Virus record (IMG/VR): IMGVR_UViG_3300028394_000017
Location: 1-34,134 of that record
Strand: one strand, 5' to 3'
From: a virus
Length of the DNA stretch: 34,134 bases
The notes under the pieces: generated by a model
Database searches by the model: none
Told to the model about the DNA's origin: nothing
What the model saw: the letters and a program-made list of their open reading frames with translations, nothing else
Program-made: the position numbers and the translations under genes
Shown here: piece by piece, positions 11,348-22,428 of the stretch
Layout of the letters: every line of letters starts with the position of its first letter
Position numbering within the stretch: position 1 is the stretch's first letter

Positions 11348-12925
11348 ATGGCTGGCAAACCTGTCGAACATGACCCTTTTGTTACGCAATCAGGCGGCAT
11401 ACCTGTTGAGCATGATCCTTTTGCGCCTCAAAAACGATCATGGATGGATGTTGCTGGAGAATCGTTAACTAATATACCTACAAGTGCTGCGGCATTAGCT
11501 GGCAATCTTTATGACGTAGCAACAGACCCAATTCAAGCCGCAAGAGGCATGGGAAGAATGATTGTTGGCGGCACAGAAAAATTGATGGGTGAGCCTTATT
11601 TTGATACCTCAAGTGGTCGAGCAGTTCGTGAACAAGGTAAAGCGGCATTAAGCAACGCTGGAGAATATTTTAAAAACCGTGCTGGTAGTGAAGAAGCAAT
11701 TAAAAATACACTAGCTACCGACCCTGTGGGCGCTGCGGCTGATTTGTCTGCGTTATTAAGTGGCGGCAGTACGTTGGCGGCAAGAATGCCTATGTTGGCA
11801 AAAGCTGCGCCTGCATTAAGAACATGGGCAAGTGTGACTGATCCTTTGAATTTGGCGGCTAAAGCTGGCGGCAAAATGTATGACCTTGCTGGCGTATTGA
11901 CCAAACAAGGTTTGGGTCTAAAAACAGGCGTAGGAACAGAACCAATAACTCAAGCAGTGCAAGCTGGTCGAGAAAATAATCCTGCGTTTATTAAAAATTT
12001 GCGCGGTGATGTGCCTGCAATTAATGTTTTAGAAGATGCTAAAGCTAACCTTGCACAAATAAATGCTGACAAACAGCAAGCCTATCGGTCTGGCATGGTT
12101 AACATTAAAAATGATAAGTCTGTGCTTGATTTCATAGGAATTGACAAAGCATTAAAAGACGCTGAGGGTGCGGCTTACTTTAAAGGTAAAGTTATTGACG
12201 AAACTTCTGCATCTGTATTAGATAAGATGAAAGCCAAAGTAGCAAATTGGAAAAATTCAGACCCTGCTGAATACCACACTCCAGAAGCTATGGATAAATT
12301 AAAACAAAGCCTTTGGGAAGATTTTGGCAAATTAGGCCAAGAAGAAAAAGAAGCATATTCATTGGGTAAGCAAATTTATGATTCTGTTAAAACAGAAATT
12401 AGTAAACAAGCGCCTGAGTATGCAAAGGTAATGAAAGAATATACCGATGCAAGCGATTTAACTAAAGAAATTGAGCGTTCATTGTCTCTTGGCCATAAGG
12501 CATCTGCTGACACCGCAATGCGTAAACTTCAATCGTTAATGAGAAACAACGTAAACACAAACTACGGTCAACGACTCAATCTTGCCCAACAATTAGAAAG
12601 CGCCGGTGGCAGAGATTTAATGCCTGCTTTGGCTGGTCAGGCTATGGGTGATTGGACACCAAGGGGCATCCAAAGGGCTGCGGCAGGACTTGAGGGCATG
12701 GGTGCTTATGCAATTGGTGGCCCCGCATTGGCGGCTTTAGATGTAGCATCGTCATCACCAAGATTAATGGGTGAGGCATCATACAAATATGGTCAACTTG
12801 CAAATGCTTTAAATCAAGGCAAAAAAGCAGTTTCTAATGCAGTGCCAATGACGGCAAAACAAGCTAGATTAGCGGCTCTTTTAGGGTCACAATCTAATCC
12901 ATACGCAATTGGGGGACAGCAATGA
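11348..12925 (+). CDS. Putative DNA ejection protein, Ala/Gly-rich
   Basis: A 525-residue protein. A duplicated PVEHDPF motif lies at residues about 5-11 and 18-24. Long Ala/Gly-rich amphipathic stretches (about 45-90, 130-190 and near 450-475, GLEGMGAYAIGGPALAALDV) could insert into membranes. The middle is charged and helical (KDAEGAAYFKGKVIDETSASVLDKMKAKV split over residues 265-300). This is the profile of proteins ejected with phage DNA to form a trans-envelope channel. The ATG at 11348 lies 1 base after the previous stop. The stop TGA at 12923-12925 is also the left edge of the homing element, and probably once overlapped the ATG of the fibre gene. Confidence 0.6.
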   Translation: MAGKPVEHDPFVTQSGGIPVEHDPFAPQKRSWMDVAGESLTNIPTSAAALAGNLYDVATDPIQAARGMGRMIVGGTEKLMGEPYFDTSSGRAVREQGKAALSNAGEYFKNRAGSEEAIKNTLATDPVGAAADLSALLSGGSTLAARMPMLAKAAPALRTWASVTDPLNLAAKAGGKMYDLAGVLTKQGLGLKTGVGTEPITQAVQAGRENNPAFIKNLRGDVPAINVLEDAKANLAQINADKQQAYRSGMVNIKNDKSVLDFIGIDKALKDAEGAAYFKGKVIDETSASVLDKMKAKVANWKNSDPAEYHTPEAMDKLKQSLWEDFGKLGQEEKEAYSLGKQIYDSVKTEISKQAPEYAKVMKEYTDASDLTKEIERSLSLGHKASADTAMRKLQSLMRNNVNTNYGQRLNLAQQLESAGGRDLMPALAGQAMGDWTPRGIQRAAAGLEGMGAYAIGGPALAALDVASSSPRLMGEASYKYGQLANALNQGKKAVSNAVPMTAKQARLAALLGSQSNPYAIGGQQ

Positions 12926-12930
12926 GTTAC
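12923..12930. repeat. Left copy of 8-bp direct repeat flanking the HNH element
   Basis: TGAGTTAC here matches 13539-13546. The left copy overlaps the stop codon of the ejection gene and is preceded by A, giving ATGAGTTAC, the presumed original start of the fibre gene (Met-Ser-Tyr). Confidence 0.8.
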
Positions 12931-13484
12931 GCCCTTGTTGCTTTGTTTTTAATCCTTGAAATATGAGATTGATTTACGCCATATTTAGCAGCAAGTACGG
13001 ATTGTATTTCCGTGCTGGCGCAAATCATGGCAATGTCGTCATCAGTCAATCTTCCATTCCAATGATTCAGTCCATAGTTATGACGGCGTTTTTTTGCGGT
13101 GTCTGCGTTGTTTTCGGCTTTTGTGCCTATTTGAAGATGGTCGGGGTTTACGCATGGCGCGTTATCGCATTTGTGCATAATTATTTTGCCATCAGGTATT
13201 TGACCTACATAAAGCTCATAAGAATAACGATGAGCTCTAACAGTTTTGCCGCCAGCAATCATAAAAATTCCATACCCATAACCATTTTTAGTCCCTTTCC
13301 AAACCCAGCATTTGTCGGTTTTTTGAATTTTTGCCTCAAAAGCATCTTTTTCAGATACCCCCAAATGATCGTGCAAAGTTTTAGAATGCCAGGCTTGTTT
13401 GTAATGTTTGCTACAAAGTTGGCGAGCCACAGATGGCAAGGCGCAAACAGAACACAAAATCACCGTTTTTACTTGATGGCCCAT
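12927..13484 (-). CDS. HNH homing endonuclease with zinc ribbon and C-terminal HTH
   Basis: A 185-residue protein on the strand opposite to all structural genes. Zinc-ribbon-like CSVC (11-14) and CSKHY (24-28) come first. The HNH core follows: [20 protein letters not shown] (H86), then [14 protein letters not shown] (H104, C106, C111, N113, H116). Residues 147-183 form a helix-turn-helix ([18 protein letters not shown]) typical of free-standing phage homing enzymes. Start ATG 13484 has AGAGG a few bases upstream and lies 22 bases after a TATAAT box; ATG 13523 would precede that promoter and is rejected. It cuts an intron-less target site to spread itself. Confidence 0.88.
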
Positions 13485-13506
13485 AAATCCTCTTGTAAAA
13501 ACATCA

Positions 13507-13535
13507 ATTATATGCCCTTTCAATGGAGGTGGCTA
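13507..13535 (-). promoter_or_regulatory. Promoter of the HNH gene
   Basis: Read on the minus strand: -35 TAGCCA (13535-13530), 17-base spacer, perfect -10 TATAAT (13512-13507). Transcription would start near 13500, about 16 bases before the HNH start codon. The promoter lies wholly inside the inserted element, so the element is self-sufficient. Confidence 0.6.
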
Positions 13536-13537
13536 CT

Positions 13538-14980
13538 GTGAGTTACAATGGTTCGGGAACATTCCAAATAAACACATCTGGTCAACCAGTAGTCACAGGC
13601 ACGGTCATATCCTCGACCGCTTTTAACGCCCTTACAGCAGACTTGGCAACAGGTCTGTCCACGGCTATCACAAAAGACGGTCAGACGGCTACAACGGCTC
13701 GCATACCGTTTGCTGCGGGTATCAGCTCTACACTGGTCACAGATTCATCTAGCACGGGTACAGGATCAATTATTACGGCTGGTGGGGTAGGTATAGCCAA
13801 GGCGCTGTATGTGGGTACTACGGCTAACGTGGCGGGTGCTGTGACCCTTGGCGGCGTGGCGACCTTTAGCGCACAACCGATATTTTCTAGTTTGACGGCA
13901 TCAACGGCAGTGGCAACAGATGCGTCCAAAGGTCTTGTTAGCGTCACCAATACAGGCACTGGCAATAACGTGCTGGGGACTGGGCCAACAATATCTTTGC
14001 CTGTCATTGACAACATTAAGATGGGTTACGCCACCACTGCTACGGCGGCGGGTACGACTACTTTGACCGTGGCAAGTAACTACCGTCAATTCTTTACAGG
14101 TTCTACTACGCAAACCGTTGTTTTGCCTGTAACTAGCACTTTGGTGACTGGCATTGCTTATGAAATTGAAAACAATTCGACTGGGTTGCTAACGGTTAAT
14201 TCGTCTGGTGGTAATTTGGTGGGAACAATACCCGCAGGCGTTTGTGCTCATGCGGTTTGTATTGGTACTACGTTAACCACTGCCGCCGATTGGGATTGGG
14301 ATTACATCTCAAACACATCAATCACTGGCACAGGCTCTGCTGTATTGGCTACTTCGCCAACAATCACAACGCCAACCATTGACACTATTACATCAGCCGC
14401 AGCAACTGCGCTGACATTAAAAAGTGCTGGTACAACAGCTCTCACAATAAGCACAAGTCAAGCGGCAACTTTTGCAAGTACGGTGGCTGATTCGGTGGCA
14501 ATTTTAAGGCCATTGGTTTCTGGCACTGCGGTTGCATCTACCAGTGGGACGAGTATTGACTTTACAAGCATCCCATCATGGGTGAAGCGTATCACTGTGA
14601 TGTTTAATGGTGTCAGTACAGGTAGCAATTCAAATTTTTTAATTCAAATAGGCTCTGGTTCAATTGTAACTACTGGTTATGTATCGGGGGCGGTCACAGT
14701 TCAATCAGCCGCAATTAGCTCTGCGGCAGTAACAAGCACTACTGCTTTTGTTGTTGCAACTGCTGGTAATGTGGCATATTTATGGACTGGAACAGTTCAG
14801 TTGGTCAATCTTACTAGTAATACTTGGGTTGAATGCGGTATGTTGGTTAATACAACTGGAGATCGAAGTACCAATAGTGGTGGAACACTTGCTCTTGGTG
14901 GTGCGCTTGATCGAGTTCGTATTACTTCTGTAACACCAGATACTTTTGATGCCGGAAGTGTAAATATCTTATATGAATAA
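13538..14980 (+). CDS. Tail fibre or tail tip protein
   Basis: A 480-residue, Thr/Ser/Gly/Ala-rich beta protein. The opening SYNGSGTFQINTSGQPVV..GTVI....FNALTADLATGLS..ITKDGQ is the standard N-terminus of many phage fibre proteins that attach to the tail. The body has repeated strand-turn units (TTATAAGTTTLTVASNYRQ, TATSPTITTPTIDT-like). The C-terminal 150 residues resemble a receptor-binding jelly roll (SWVKRITVMFNGVSTG...VRITSV). The start is GTG 13538 with GGAGG 8 bases upstream, supplied by the homing element; ATG 13523 would add five residues and overlap that ribosome site. Likely binds a host surface glycan. Confidence 0.7.
   Translation: MSYNGSGTFQINTSGQPVVTGTVISSTAFNALTADLATGLSTAITKDGQTATTARIPFAAGISSTLVTDSSSTGTGSIITAGGVGIAKALYVGTTANVAGAVTLGGVATFSAQPIFSSLTASTAVATDASKGLVSVTNTGTGNNVLGTGPTISLPVIDNIKMGYATTATAAGTTTLTVASNYRQFFTGSTTQTVVLPVTSTLVTGIAYEIENNSTGLLTVNSSGGNLVGTIPAGVCAHAVCIGTTLTTAADWDWDYISNTSITGTGSAVLATSPTITTPTIDTITSAAATALTLKSAGTTALTISTSQAATFASTVADSVAILRPLVSGTAVASTSGTSIDFTSIPSWVKRITVMFNGVSTGSNSNFLIQIGSGSIVTTGYVSGAVTVQSAAISSAAVTSTTAFVVATAGNVAYLWTGTVQLVNLTSNTWVECGMLVNTTGDRSTNSGGTLALGGALDRVRITSVTPDTFDAGSVNILYE
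13539..13546. repeat. Right copy of 8-bp direct repeat flanking the HNH element
   Basis: TGAGTTAC, identical to 12923-12930. Preceded by G it forms the present GTG start and the Ser-Tyr codons of the fibre gene. Confidence 0.8.
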
Positions 14981-17913: not shown

Positions 17914-18127
17914 ATTTACCCTCTGGCTTATTTGTCTTTTCCTCCAAGTCATAGCAATTTGCCCATCCTGTCCAGCCACCATCTGCCAAAGGTATGGTGT
18001 CTAACTTAATTTTAAAATTTTCGCCATCTTCAAACAAGCTGCCAATGGTCTGGTAGCGTTTCTTTTCCTGACCGTCTTTGTTGGTGTATGTGCCAGTTAT
18101 GACAACAATGTTTTTAATCTTTTTCAT
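17888..18127 (-). CDS. Small conserved protein, possible ssDNA-binding/OB-type
   Basis: A 79-residue protein: MKKIKNIVVITGTYTNKDG, then KKRYQTIGSLFEDGENFKIK, then LADGGWTGWANCYDLEE. Alternating beta strands with a basic, aromatic face suggest an OB-like fold, and the gene lies next to the YqaJ exonuclease and near Erf, where phages often keep a single-strand DNA-binding protein. That function is inference; the sequence is short and I recognise no signature. It overlaps its upstream neighbour (ATGA). Confidence 0.5.
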   Translation of the reverse strand: MKKIKNIVVITGTYTNKDGQEKKRYQTIGSLFEDGENFKIKLDTIPLADGGWTGWANCYDLEEKTNKPEGKYDDTSIPF

Positions 18128-18729
18128 GGAAGGCTTTCAAGTTGTTGAATTTTTAGGTCTACGTCACCCAAGAATTGGATAACTGAATTCTCAAGCAGAT
18201 TAACCATTTCGGGGTCATAGTTAATACGCTTGATGAATAGCTGATGTTTTTCTGGTAATCGAGGATCGAAACTTACAAAGTCAGACCAAGGGCGGTCGGC
18301 ACAGGCCATTTGCCACATCATTTGCGTAATGTATTTGGCTGGCACAGTTCGACTTAACAGCGTTTCAATGTGCGTAGCAGTGTTTGGGCATTTGATCTCC
18401 ACCATTCCCTCATTAGCCAGGCCATCAGGAGAAGCGCCACACATGGGAATCCAAGGGTGGTCTATAAACCCCACCTCTGTTACCAAGATGTCCATTCTGG
18501 CCTCATAAGCGGCGCGGGCAAATTCTTCCTGATCCGTTCCCCAAGACATTGCTGCGTTACTGAAAGACTCGGCAGGCTTACCTGTTAACCTTTCACAAAC
18601 CAATTGGGCTAGGTAGTTCTCGCGGCTGGCGCTTGGCCCTGATTTGGTTTTGGCAATGATGTCTGCTACACGGCTTGCGGTGACCTTGCCGCATCGGGCG
18701 GCAAACCATTCTTCAGTTCGTTGTTCCAT
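18124..18729 (-). CDS. YqaJ-like phage exonuclease (recombination nuclease)
   Basis: A 201-residue protein with the YqaJ/lambda-Exo layout: QRTEEWFAARCGKVTASRVAD (3-23), WGTDQEEFAR (63-72; conserved Glu), GASPDGL (98-104; D102) and VEIKCP (110-115; E111 and K113 of the D...EXK site), then a helical C-terminus. It would resect double-stranded ends 5' to 3' and hand 3' single strands to the Erf annealase encoded nearby. ATG 18729 is selected by AAAGGA 6 bases upstream; ATG 18735 sits inside that ribosome site. The active-site residues are intact. Confidence 0.85.
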   Translation of the reverse strand: MEQRTEEWFAARCGKVTASRVADIIAKTKSGPSASRENYLAQLVCERLTGKPAESFSNAAMSWGTDQEEFARAAYEARMDILVTEVGFIDHPWIPMCGASPDGLANEGMVEIKCPNTATHIETLLSRTVPAKYITQMMWQMACADRPWSDFVSFDPRLPEKHQLFIKRINYDPEMVNLLENSVIQFLGDVDLKIQQLESLP

Positions 18730-18949
18730 TTTCATCCTTTGTAATTGAATATCTTTCTTTAAGCATGGCAAATGCTATTGCATACGAGCAACCCGCATAC
18801 TCATCAAACTCCATATCTGTTTCATCTAATGACACTAAGGCTTGCATAGCTTTTGCCGCAAAATAATCCATCAACGTCATGCCTGTCAGGTCTGACTTGT
18901 GTGGATTAGGAAATGCGTGTGGGTTGGTTGGTTTGTTAAATTCATTCAC
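18713..18949 (-). CDS. Phage hypothetical protein, 78 aa
   Basis: The N-terminal half carries LTGMTLMDYFAAKAMQAL, a motif found in many small phage proteins of unknown role, followed by an acidic stretch (DETDMEFDEYAG) and AIAFAMLKERY. It lies between Erf and the nuclease, overlapping the nuclease start by 17 bases and the Erf stop as ATGA. No catalytic or binding motif is visible. The conservation of the motif in phages makes it a real gene. Confidence 0.65.
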   Translation of the reverse strand: MNEFNKPTNPHAFPNPHKSDLTGMTLMDYFAAKAMQALVSLDETDMEFDEYAGCSYAIAFAMLKERYSITKDENGTTN

Positions 18950-19548
18950 TTGGCTAACTCCTTAGACAATGAGGCTTCTAATTGCGCTTTTTTAGCGTCT
19001 TTTTTGGCAATGACTTTAGCTTGCCATGCCTGTTCGCCGTTTGTGGCCTTGTAGGCCGCCTTATAGGTTTCTTGAAGCTCTTTAACCGTGGTCACTTCAT
19101 CCATTGCCGCCATCAGGTCAGCAATTTGGTTTTCGTTGACCGTGGACTTGATTTCGGTGCGGCGGCTGGCTGCTACACCGTCATCATCAACCGTGGCAAG
19201 ACCGGTGGCGGCAAGCAAACTGTATCTCCGCGCATAAGTCAACGCACTACCAAAACCCATTGCATCATGTTTGCTAGCAGGAACGTGCAGCATTCCGCAT
19301 TCCATGACTTCGCCACTTTCGTGGACAAACACGGTCTCCACCATCACGCCATCTTTGCATTCAAAGGTACGCTGCATGAGGGCTATGCCATTGGCGTTTA
19401 AAGCGTCTACAACAGCTTCCACGCAATTAGCCAGGTCAGCGTACTTGGATTTGAAATGCGGGTTTGTGGACGTTTTGAGCGCAGGGCCAAAGGCACGTTG
19501 AGCTTTGACAAAGGCCGCGGCAATGTTTTTTCCAATTGGTGTTTCCAT
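18946..19548 (-). CDS. erf: Erf-family single-strand annealing protein
   Basis: A 200-residue protein with the Erf signature: NPHFKSKYADLANCVEAV (29-46), FVHESGE (74-80) and KHDAMGFGSALTYARRYSL (93-111), then ATGLATVDDDG (114-124). Erf (from P22) binds single-stranded DNA, forms rings and anneals complementary strands for phage recombination and circularisation. Residues after 130 are a Lys/Ala-rich helical tail. With the YqaJ nuclease downstream it makes a complete two-component recombination system. Confidence 0.9.
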   Translation of the reverse strand: METPIGKNIAAAFVKAQRAFGPALKTSTNPHFKSKYADLANCVEAVVDALNANGIALMQRTFECKDGVMVETVFVHESGEVMECGMLHVPASKHDAMGFGSALTYARRYSLLAATGLATVDDDGVAASRRTEIKSTVNENQIADLMAAMDEVTTVKELQETYKAAYKATNGEQAWQAKVIAKKDAKKAQLEASLSKELAK

Positions 19549-20448: not shown

Positions 20449-20547
20449 GATTGTTTGAAACGTGGCTAGGGTAGCTCCCGAAAAGACGATTCTTCACCGT
20501 CCTGCCAATGTTTCTCATGTGAAGATGACCAATGAAGTAAGGTTGTT

Positions 20548-21505: not shown

Positions 21506-22428
21506 ATGAGTTGGCTCTTTTCGCAGGCGCTGGTGGAGGAATACTTGGCGGCAAGCTCCTTGGATGGCGAACAGTCTGCGCCGTTGAGTGGGAAGCCTAC
21601 CCCGCAAGCGTACTGTGCGCCCGACAAAATGACGGTCTTCTCCCGACTTTCCCGATTTGGGATGACGTTTGCACCTTTGACGGACATCCTTGGCGAGGAA
21701 TTGTCGATGTTATCAGTGGTGGCTTTCCATGTCAGGACATTAGTGCCGCAGGAAAAGGCGCAGGAATTGATGGAGAACGATCAGGAATGTGGGGAGAAAT
21801 GGCAAGGATCATTTGTGAAGTACGACCCAGATACGTCTTTGTGGAAAACTCACCAATGCTTACTTCTAGGGGACTTGGAAGAGTTCTTGGAGACTTGGCC
21901 TCAATGGGGTTTGATGCGAAATGGGGAGTGCTGGGAGCAGCAGACGTTGGAGCGCCGCATCAGCGGGACAGAATCTGGATTGTCGCCAAATGGTGTAAAC
22001 AGCTTCCACACACCCAACACAACAGGATTAGACGGTGGGAGCAACAGCAGGAAAGCCCTAAAAAAGAAAATGGACTTGTGGCCAACCCCTGTGCATTCGG
22101 AAGCCAGACAGGGCTTGCAGATACGCAGAGAGGGCAAAAAAGGGACGCAGACAAGTCTCAGCACAGCAGTTCTGACCTGGCCAACCCCAAGAGCAGCGGA
22201 CTTCAAGGGAGCAACAAGTGCGGAAGCCATGAGCAAAGCAGCAGCAAGGGGATTCAGTCCGAATTTGCCAGAAGCTACGGCAGCGTCAGTAGGTGGTGGT
22301 CATCTGAACCCAACGTGGGTCGAGTGGCTGATGGGGTGGCCGCTAGGGTGGACAGACTTAAAGCCATTGGGAATGGACAAGTCCCTTTGTGTGCGGCAAC
22401 AGCATGGAGAATCCTAAGTGAATCATGA
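21502..22428 (+). CDS. C5-cytosine DNA methyltransferase
   Basis: A 308-residue frame with all key motifs: motif I LALFAGAGGGILGGKLLGW, motif IV GGFPCQDIS (catalytic C77), motif VI VENSP (114-118; ENS where many have ENV), motif VIII QRDRIW (154-159) and motif X AIGNGQVP (288-295). The region between, about 165-280, is a poor-complexity, short target-recognition part. It would methylate a cytosine in phage DNA against host restriction. The start is TTG 21502 (4 bases after GGAGG) or TTG 21511. Almost the entire gene is also open in the +1 frame as a 303-codon ORF. Confidence 0.85.
   Translation: MNELALFAGAGGGILGGKLLGWRTVCAVEWEAYPASVLCARQNDGLLPTFPIWDDVCTFDGHPWRGIVDVISGGFPCQDISAAGKGAGIDGERSGMWGEMARIICEVRPRYVFVENSPMLTSRGLGRVLGDLASMGFDAKWGVLGAADVGAPHQRDRIWIVAKWCKQLPHTQHNRIRRWEQQQESPKKENGLVANPCAFGSQTGLADTQRGQKRDADKSQHSSSDLANPKSSGLQGSNKCGSHEQSSSKGIQSEFARSYGSVSRWWSSEPNVGRVADGVAARVDRLKAIGNGQVPLCAATAWRILSES
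21506..22417 (+). CDS. Overprinted ORF inside the methyltransferase gene (SWLFS family)
   Basis: A 303-codon frame in +1 relative to the methyltransferase, with the better start of the two: ATG 21506 lies 8 bases after GGAGG. The product begins SWLFSQALVEEYLA and has FSRLSRFGMTFAPLT (45-59), KYDPDTSLWKTHQC (105-118), two WPTP motifs (192-195, 225-228) and a Trp-rich LNPTWVEWLMGWPLGW near 267-282. From memory, this set of motifs recurs in proteins annotated next to or over phage C5 methyltransferases, so the frame is probably expressed. I know no defined function. It may be a partner of, or modulator of, the methyltransferase. Confidence 0.6.
   Translation: MSWLFSQALVEEYLAASSLDGEQSAPLSGKPTPQAYCAPDKMTVFSRLSRFGMTFAPLTDILGEELSMLSVVAFHVRTLVPQEKAQELMENDQECGEKWQGSFVKYDPDTSLWKTHQCLLLGDLEEFLETWPQWGLMRNGECWEQQTLERRISGTESGLSPNGVNSFHTPNTTGLDGGSNSRKALKKKMDLWPTPVHSEARQGLQIRREGKKGTQTSLSTAVLTWPTPRAADFKGATSAEAMSKAAARGFSPNLPEATAASVGGGHLNPTWVEWLMGWPLGWTDLKPLGMDKSLCVRQQHGES

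Follow-up and report, generated by a model that had tools for sequence, protein, structure and literature searches.

A probable homing-type HNH element at the start codon of a phage gene: a replaced gene start and an operon that appears to stay translatable

How might a selfish gene settle on the very start codon of a gene in a tightly coupled operon and leave that gene expressed? A locus in the virus record IMGVR_UViG_3300028394_000017 raises this question. The whole stretch of 34,134 bases (positions 1 to 34,134 of the record) is called the window here; it is classed as viral by IMG/VR rules and carries head, tail, lysis and terminase genes. In it an HNH endonuclease gene sits antisense between two reading frames, that of an upstream late gene and that of a fibre-like gene (Table 1). 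A preliminary description, made from the window alone, had proposed that the insert is flanked by a short repeat, that its removal restores a stop/start overlap typical of this genome, and that it ends with GGAGG and GTG, so that it occupies the exact start codon of a conserved gene without inactivating it. Comparing the locus with its relatives, we find it probable that this is a free-standing homing-type HNH element which substitutes a start of its own for that of the invaded gene and lets the operon remain translatable; its cutting, homing and translation we infer from sequence.

The upstream reading frame of the window ends with the TGA at 12923-12925. The 8-mer TGAGTTAC lies at 12923-12930 and again at 13539-13546, flanking the HNH gene, which is on the minus strand and has its TAA stop codon within the left copy. 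The base before the left copy is A (ATGAGTTAC) and the base before the right copy is G (GTGAGTTAC). Since the 8-mer occurs four times on the plus strand of the window, the repeat by itself is weak; recurrence of the same 8-mer 616 nt further on is a property of one in 33,510 window positions, this locus alone. The repeat on both flanks was thus correctly described, as were the GGAGG and the GTG at the end of the element. The four-base overlap also recurs as claimed, at nine other listed open reading frame (ORF) junctions, six of them ATGA and three TTGA.

For the comparison we collected starts of the fibre-like gene by scans with fibre, upstream and HNH proteins and with two DNA patterns, sites being distinct by the 60 nt on each side. 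The set, which is not a census, holds at least 170 distinct sites: 32 with an HNH gene (H sites), four deletion scars and 134 empty sites. Three doubtful scars (L261, L262 and L267; L-numbers are labels of loci or contigs) were removed from the latter before counting, leaving 131. Many element-free relatives run from the upstream gene straight into ATG-AGT-TAC-AAC-GG, and the junction that the preliminary description had reconstructed is present among them, for example in L036 (...GGGGGACAGCA-ATG-AGTTACAACGG). The protein begins Met-Ser-Tyr/Phe-Asn-Gly, with ATG directly before the Ser codon in 120 of the 131 empty sites. Its conserved N-terminus does not begin well upstream, as an in-frame stop is met 2-27 codons upstream in 36/36 occupied or scarred sites; in 10 of these 36 no in-frame ATG precedes the junction start.

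What became of the native start can be read from close relatives. Of the 36 occupied or scarred sites, 20 (16 of the 32 H sites and every scar) have an empty relative at least 93% identical over the 60 nt left of the relic; for the other 16 the set contains none. Over these 20 pairs the nine relic bases are on average 96% identical to the native start of the best local empty relative, and those of the right copy 79%. The relic of L164, GTGAGTTAT, is exactly the unusual native start of empty L336, while the start before the L164 gene itself reads ATGTCTTTC. Alignments break at the junction in the pairs L163/L003 (2351 nt on the left at 91.5%), L200/L288 (2494 nt on the left at 89%, 1026 nt on the right at 84.5%) and L164/L336 (1870 nt on the left at 90%, 164 nt on the right at 93%). 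Because of the relic matches, the case of L164 and L336 and these breaks, we take the left copy to be the stranded native start and the right copy to belong to the element. On the left, the HNH stop triplet follows two bases behind a start codon (ATG, once GTG) in all of 25 loci (the window and 24 contigs). Of 18 further contigs, 17 were viewed (all but L218), and in 15 the HNH gene adjoins a relic, a fibre start or both; L216 and L217 (36-40% identical) have neither. In all, 39 of 42 loci have at least one of the two next to the HNH gene, L218 being counted among the 42. By rule, a relic start codon was found in 27 of the 32 H rows (26 ATG, one GTG), in all of which the HNH stop reads TTA or CTA within the relic. 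The rule found none in L211-L214 and L271; L214 is a cut-off locus, and L213 has a longer relic one step to the right. As judged from these comparisons, the element is shown to split the native start from its gene and to leave an ATG-Ser-Tyr relic that holds the HNH stop codon. The preliminary description had the site of insertion right; what has to be amended is the fate of the native start, which survives as the left relic and supplies the stop of the HNH gene.

The gene behind the element has a different start. Over the 32 H sites the new start codon is GTG in 13, ATG in 11, TTG in six and ATT in one, with the rule match one codon off in L213. The GTG proposed earlier is the probable new start in the window, and the start codon varies among relatives. 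A GGAG, GAGG or AGGA site precedes the start in 26 of 32 H sites as against 89 of 131 empty sites. The combination of a start ATG with the Asn codon AAC is found in 108 of 131 empty sites, two of 32 H sites and none of the four scars. Synonymous differences from the nearest empty site amount to 41/90 in codons 2-4 and 291/1177 in codons 5-44 for H sites, to 5/12 and 12/156 for scars, and to 68/384 and 1015/4949 for the empty sites themselves. Codons 1-4 are identical in 75 of 83 empty pairs with like upstream ends, and no paired H or scar site averages more than 0.92. On these counts the element is shown to bring a replacement Shine-Dalgarno sequence, a start codon and, often, differently coded first codons; the fibre-like gene would then be translated from the GTG.

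Between relic and new start the operon strand holds a third frame, the bridge, which the preliminary description did not mention and which opens in the window with the ATG at 12963, within ATATGAG, overlapping the stop of the relic frame. This stop overlaps or passes the bridge start in 24 of the 27 H rows where a relic start codon was found and falls 23 nt short of it in L175-L177. In 22 of 32 H sites the bridge ends between -10 and +5 nt of the Ser2 codon, and in most clades it is open for about 180-200 codons. It can be open only where the HNH gene avoids TTA, CTA and TCA, the codons that read as stops on the other strand. In 12 clade representatives these reverse-stop codons number 9 against 65.4 expected (none of 200,000 simulations as low, the lowest being 36), and eight of the nine fall in the last 10 HNH codons, left of the bridge. 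With the last 12 codons left out, CTA, TCA and TTA number 1 against 58.9 expected and are the three most depleted of 60 codons. Expectations were taken from the ATG-started frames of at least 150 codons in each locus, nested starts being counted repeatedly. The other two sense frames contain 133 and 103 stops, against 116.8 and 118.3 expected. As controls, 12 HNH genes elsewhere have 70 reverse-stop codons against 47.8 expected, and none of 142 windows of other genes in the H loci has one or fewer. The amino acids of the bridge are 0.34 identical in 61 distant pairs, and in these pairs HNH codons for the same residue agree in 0.49 of cases against 0.44 by chance; hence there is little constraint on the bridge beyond that on the HNH protein. 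The codon depletion and the anatomy are shown; that ribosomes pass we infer. The operon strand appears to be kept free of stops so that protein synthesis can cross the element. We lean, with some reserve, towards an operon-transparent selfish element: an antisense homing gene whose codons would be selected for a stop-free frame on the host strand, with ribosomes restarting at the stranded native start, crossing the bridge and reaching the start that the element supplies, so that the act of translation and not its product would be conserved. A variant of the layout is seen in L213, where the HNH stop lies just left of the longer relic (ATGAGTTCCTTT, against ATGTCAAGCTTC at the fibre-like gene), so that the native start opens the bridge frame directly.

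Four contigs (L015, L022, L091 and L221) lack an HNH gene but retain the relic together with the imported ribosome-binding site and GTG; a scan of the viral collection for the scar pattern returned these four contigs and no others. L022 and L221 retain bases of the left end of the element, as comparison with L016 shows, and are for this reason deletion products. In all four scars the relic frame runs straight to a TGA that overlaps the GTG. As there are two deletion lengths and three kinds of upstream end among them, they are not four independent events. Between L016 and the scar L022 the deletion joins short like sequences (of the TGCCTTTTT type), one from each end of the element, which suggests loss by short-repeat recombination. 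L261, L262 and L267 have element-like ribosome-binding sites of the right end, upstream stops 33-52 nt off and no relic, and two of the three keep ATG with AAC; possibly they are older scars.

The element is present or absent at one site in close relatives, and it has changed its neighbours. Between the window and L156, L157 and L158 it is 92-98% identical, with a left flank that is absent or 71-82% identical. The upstream genes of the H sites (30 of 32 placed) fall into five families of 17, 5, 3, 2 and 2 sites, and L213 stands alone in a sixth, which may be an artefact of frame. Mapped on a tree of 31 HNH proteins, the upstream family shows 12 changes against a shuffled mean of 12.5 (195 of 500 shuffles as low), and the fibre start codon seven against 15.2 (none of 500 as low); the left flank is therefore uncoupled from the element and the right edge travels with it. 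L017 and L163 have near-identical HNH genes and different upstream families. The changed codons 2-4 and the fibre starts that carriers share may reflect co-conversion of the flanks, no direct event of which was seen. By such comparison the element is shown to adjoin unrelated upstream genes, of at least five families, in many phages. HNH genes may also be mosaic: in L084 the middle 200 nt of the gene (13130-13330 of the window) are 94% identical to the window and either side is 75-76%.

A number of observations speak against our reading. The sites are related, so that the counts do not stand for independent events, a point which p values for the synonymous differences disregard. Not every site is recoded: L157 and the scar L015 are changed at the start codon alone; L189 keeps the full ATGAGYTWYAACGG; and in 8 of 36 cases the twelve-base start is that of some empty site elsewhere. 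For these three reasons, protection of the element from re-cutting by its changed start is a suggestion only. In one clade (six of 32 H sites) the bridge stops at -125 nt before the gene; it also falls short in L164 (-33) and L213 (-35) and runs past the start in L194 (+91) and L195 (+25). After the reverse-stop codons the next scarcest HNH codons are TTC (0.19 of expectation) and AGG (0.31), and 15 of 407 overlapping 171-codon stretches of window genes also contain at most one reverse-stop codon. It might be, then, that a homing HNH gene with a new ribosome-binding site and start is all there is, its open sense frame having another cause, such as inherited codon bias, and ribosome crossing being unneeded. 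The Shine-Dalgarno sites counted above could suffice alone, a clade lives with a broken bridge, the amino acids of the bridge are hardly conserved, and TTC and AGG are scarce in the HNH genes too. However, the three most depleted codons are exactly the reverse-stop codons, the other A-ending codons, from 0.57 (GCA) to 2.13 (GGA) of expectation, are near or above it except GCA, and the other two frames are normal. The 12 HNH genes elsewhere lack the depletion, and the frame is kept in every scar. We consider an open frame of other cause unlikely, though a serious contender.

The right flank is a further difficulty. The distribution of the element is independent of the flanking genes on the left; on the right it is linked to them, save in pairs such as L017/L163, and part of the spread may for this reason be exchange of an element-plus-fibre block. 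In its full form this would mean that fibre-like and HNH genes move as one block by homologous or short-homology recombination, with the nuclease as a passenger, and the 5' sequence and start codon of the fibre-like gene do agree with the HNH tree, unlike the upstream family. Yet in L017 and L163, with their near-identical HNH genes, the fibre-like genes from codon 5 on match empty relatives (L017 the empty L018 at 93-100% per segment, L163 several empty sites at 97-100%) and each other at only 49-93%, and the fibre-like genes of window-type carriers diverge within a few hundred nt. Movement solely as a block is decidedly improbable. That the bridge encodes a real protein product would explain a frame open over such a length in most clades, but the low identity of its amino acids and the near-chance agreement of codons in distant pairs make this very hard to maintain. 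Finally, an insertion of transposon type that duplicated 8-9 bp of its target would account for the flanking TGAGTTAC repeat and is scarcely credible, given that no terminal inverted repeat is among the 20 pairs listed, that Pfam and PHROGs gave no transposase match, that in 39 of 42 loci the HNH gene adjoins the relic or the fibre start, and that the right copy is often altered where the left is native.

A homing-type HNH element also fits the protein. HNH_3 and zf-His_Me_endon were found in 16/16 members scanned. A structure model of the HNH protein (pLDDT 73) has I-HmuI and I-PpoI as its best structural neighbours, with modest scores (VIA-align Z 7.9 and 7.3; Foldseek E 0.017 and 0.015, respectively). 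I-HmuI is intron-encoded. So is I-PpoI by its PDB title, whereas the present site has no intron family match: a self-splicing intron of a described type was rejected, as Rfam gave no match at the site and its sole match in the window, int-alpA, lies elsewhere (20459-20525, plus strand, 39.6 bits against a gathering score of 35.8). Two hairpins were rejected as well. One that would mask the Shine-Dalgarno sequence is predicted in the window, but it is no better than shuffles (9 sites folded) and shows no both-sides change in a 28-row alignment; the other, a terminator-like hairpin over the left junction, has its stem sequence changed in L156 and L158.

We propose the following course of events. 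During co-infection the HNH enzyme would cut an element-free copy at its conserved start, and repair, perhaps by the ERF and YqaJ recombinases of the phage, would copy the element in; the altered start might then prevent re-cutting. The open operon strand leads from the upstream stop through the relic start, a short leader and the bridge frame to the new start; ribosomes that cross it would keep the downstream gene expressed, so that the insertion would cost little. Genes for a YqaJ-type recombinase and an ERF recombinase lie close together in the window (18124-18771 and 18946-19548, minus strand), and such a phage-own repair system could serve short-homology homing.

Table 1. Layout of the element and its neighbours in the window
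Feature	Position	Strand	Basis or remark
Upstream late gene, 557 aa	11252..12925	+	TGA overlaps native fibre start as ATGA
Relic of native fibre start, ATGAGTTAC	12922..12930	+	comparison with empty relatives
Relic ORF, 14 codons from native start	12922..12966	+	stop TGA overlaps bridge ATG (ATATGAG)
HNH endonuclease gene, 185 aa from conserved Met	12927..13484	-	HNH_3 and zf-His_Me_endon; stop TAA inside relic
Bridge ORF, 192 codons, codon-aligned antisense of HNH gene	12963..13541	+	TGA overlaps new fibre GTG
Sigma-70-like promoter candidate for HNH gene, TAGCCA-17-TATAAT	13507..13535	-	overlaps fibre ribosome-binding site
GGAGG Shine-Dalgarno, element-supplied	13525..13529	+	sequence
New start codon GTG of fibre-like gene	13538..13540	+	alternative in-frame ATG at 13523
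Right copy of TGAGTTAC	13539..13546	+	repeat
Fibre-like gene	13538..14980	+	ORF, PHROG 29482 match

Some features of the locus deserve separate mention. The name 'ejection gene' given earlier to the upstream gene has no family support. 'Fibre' is unproven: the gene matches PHROG 29482, of unknown function, and its structure model, with a pLDDT of 40, is too poor to assign a fold. Annotated phages gave no DNA-level match to this region and two distant matches to the fibre N-terminus; a sequence search of the PDB at E 0.01 gave no relatives, and none were confirmed in genome_contigs. As to the promoter of the HNH gene, a -10-like hexamer lies 25-28 nt off in 32/32 H sites, with 5 or 6 bases matching in 21 of them; this constancy is partly built in, since the best match was taken and ties were resolved towards position 28, and the number of such promoter matches in the region is at chance level. 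In L212 (803-850) the fibre-like gene apparently starts with ATT, and on the opposite strand a perfect TTGACA, 17 nt and TAAATT abut this start, which would set promoter and start codon in competition for these bases. The window also encodes a C-5 cytosine DNA methylase (21506-22428, plus strand).

In conclusion, the locus shows how a selfish gene may settle on a start codon within a tightly coupled operon and leave the next gene unsilenced. It provides evidence that an antisense open frame is under selection, apparently for the passage of ribosomes rather than for a protein, and it makes testable the idea that long antisense ORFs are kept for reasons other than their product. The element may also represent a natural case in which a nuclease travels with an altered version of the site it cuts. 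A nuclease joined to a changed target is comparable in logic to engineered cleave-and-rescue designs. Among the literature matches listed, which leave subscription journals mostly outside, no title or abstract opening describes a bridge or a start-replacing element.

Known systems share parts of this arrangement. The free-standing Seg and Mob homing endonucleases of T4-like phages are, in the passages of PMC2988022 devoted to them, optional nuclease genes between phage genes; some carry promoters of downstream genes, such as those of gene 32 inside segG, which favours their retention, segD is antisense to its neighbours, and mobE has its start in a UAAUGA overlap. Our element likewise is a nuclease gene between phage genes with signals needed downstream. 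Unlike those genes as portrayed there, it supplies the ribosome-binding site and start codon of the downstream gene itself, leaves a relic of the native start and has an antisense open frame. By the account in part of PMC3630166, mitochondrial mobile ORFs, likewise endonuclease elements, replace the C-terminus of a gene, as in atp6 of Allomyces and in atp6, atp9, cox2 and nad3 of Glomus. Here, too, the gene end is foreign and largely synonymously different, and the native end persists as a relic matching close relatives, the foreign end presumably being the one in use. It is, however, the start and not the 3' end that is replaced, in a phage operon and by an antisense nuclease gene. The ShiLan domain, in the portion of PMC11855218 that presents it, is a hidden HNH in a phage methylase. 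In both cases an HNH insertion is tolerated as another frame stays open, and no known intron or intein is involved. ShiLan lies within a gene and is read in frame, its HNH being in another frame of that same gene, whereas in our element the HNH gene lies on the opposite strand, and the bridge, a frame in its own right, stands between two genes.

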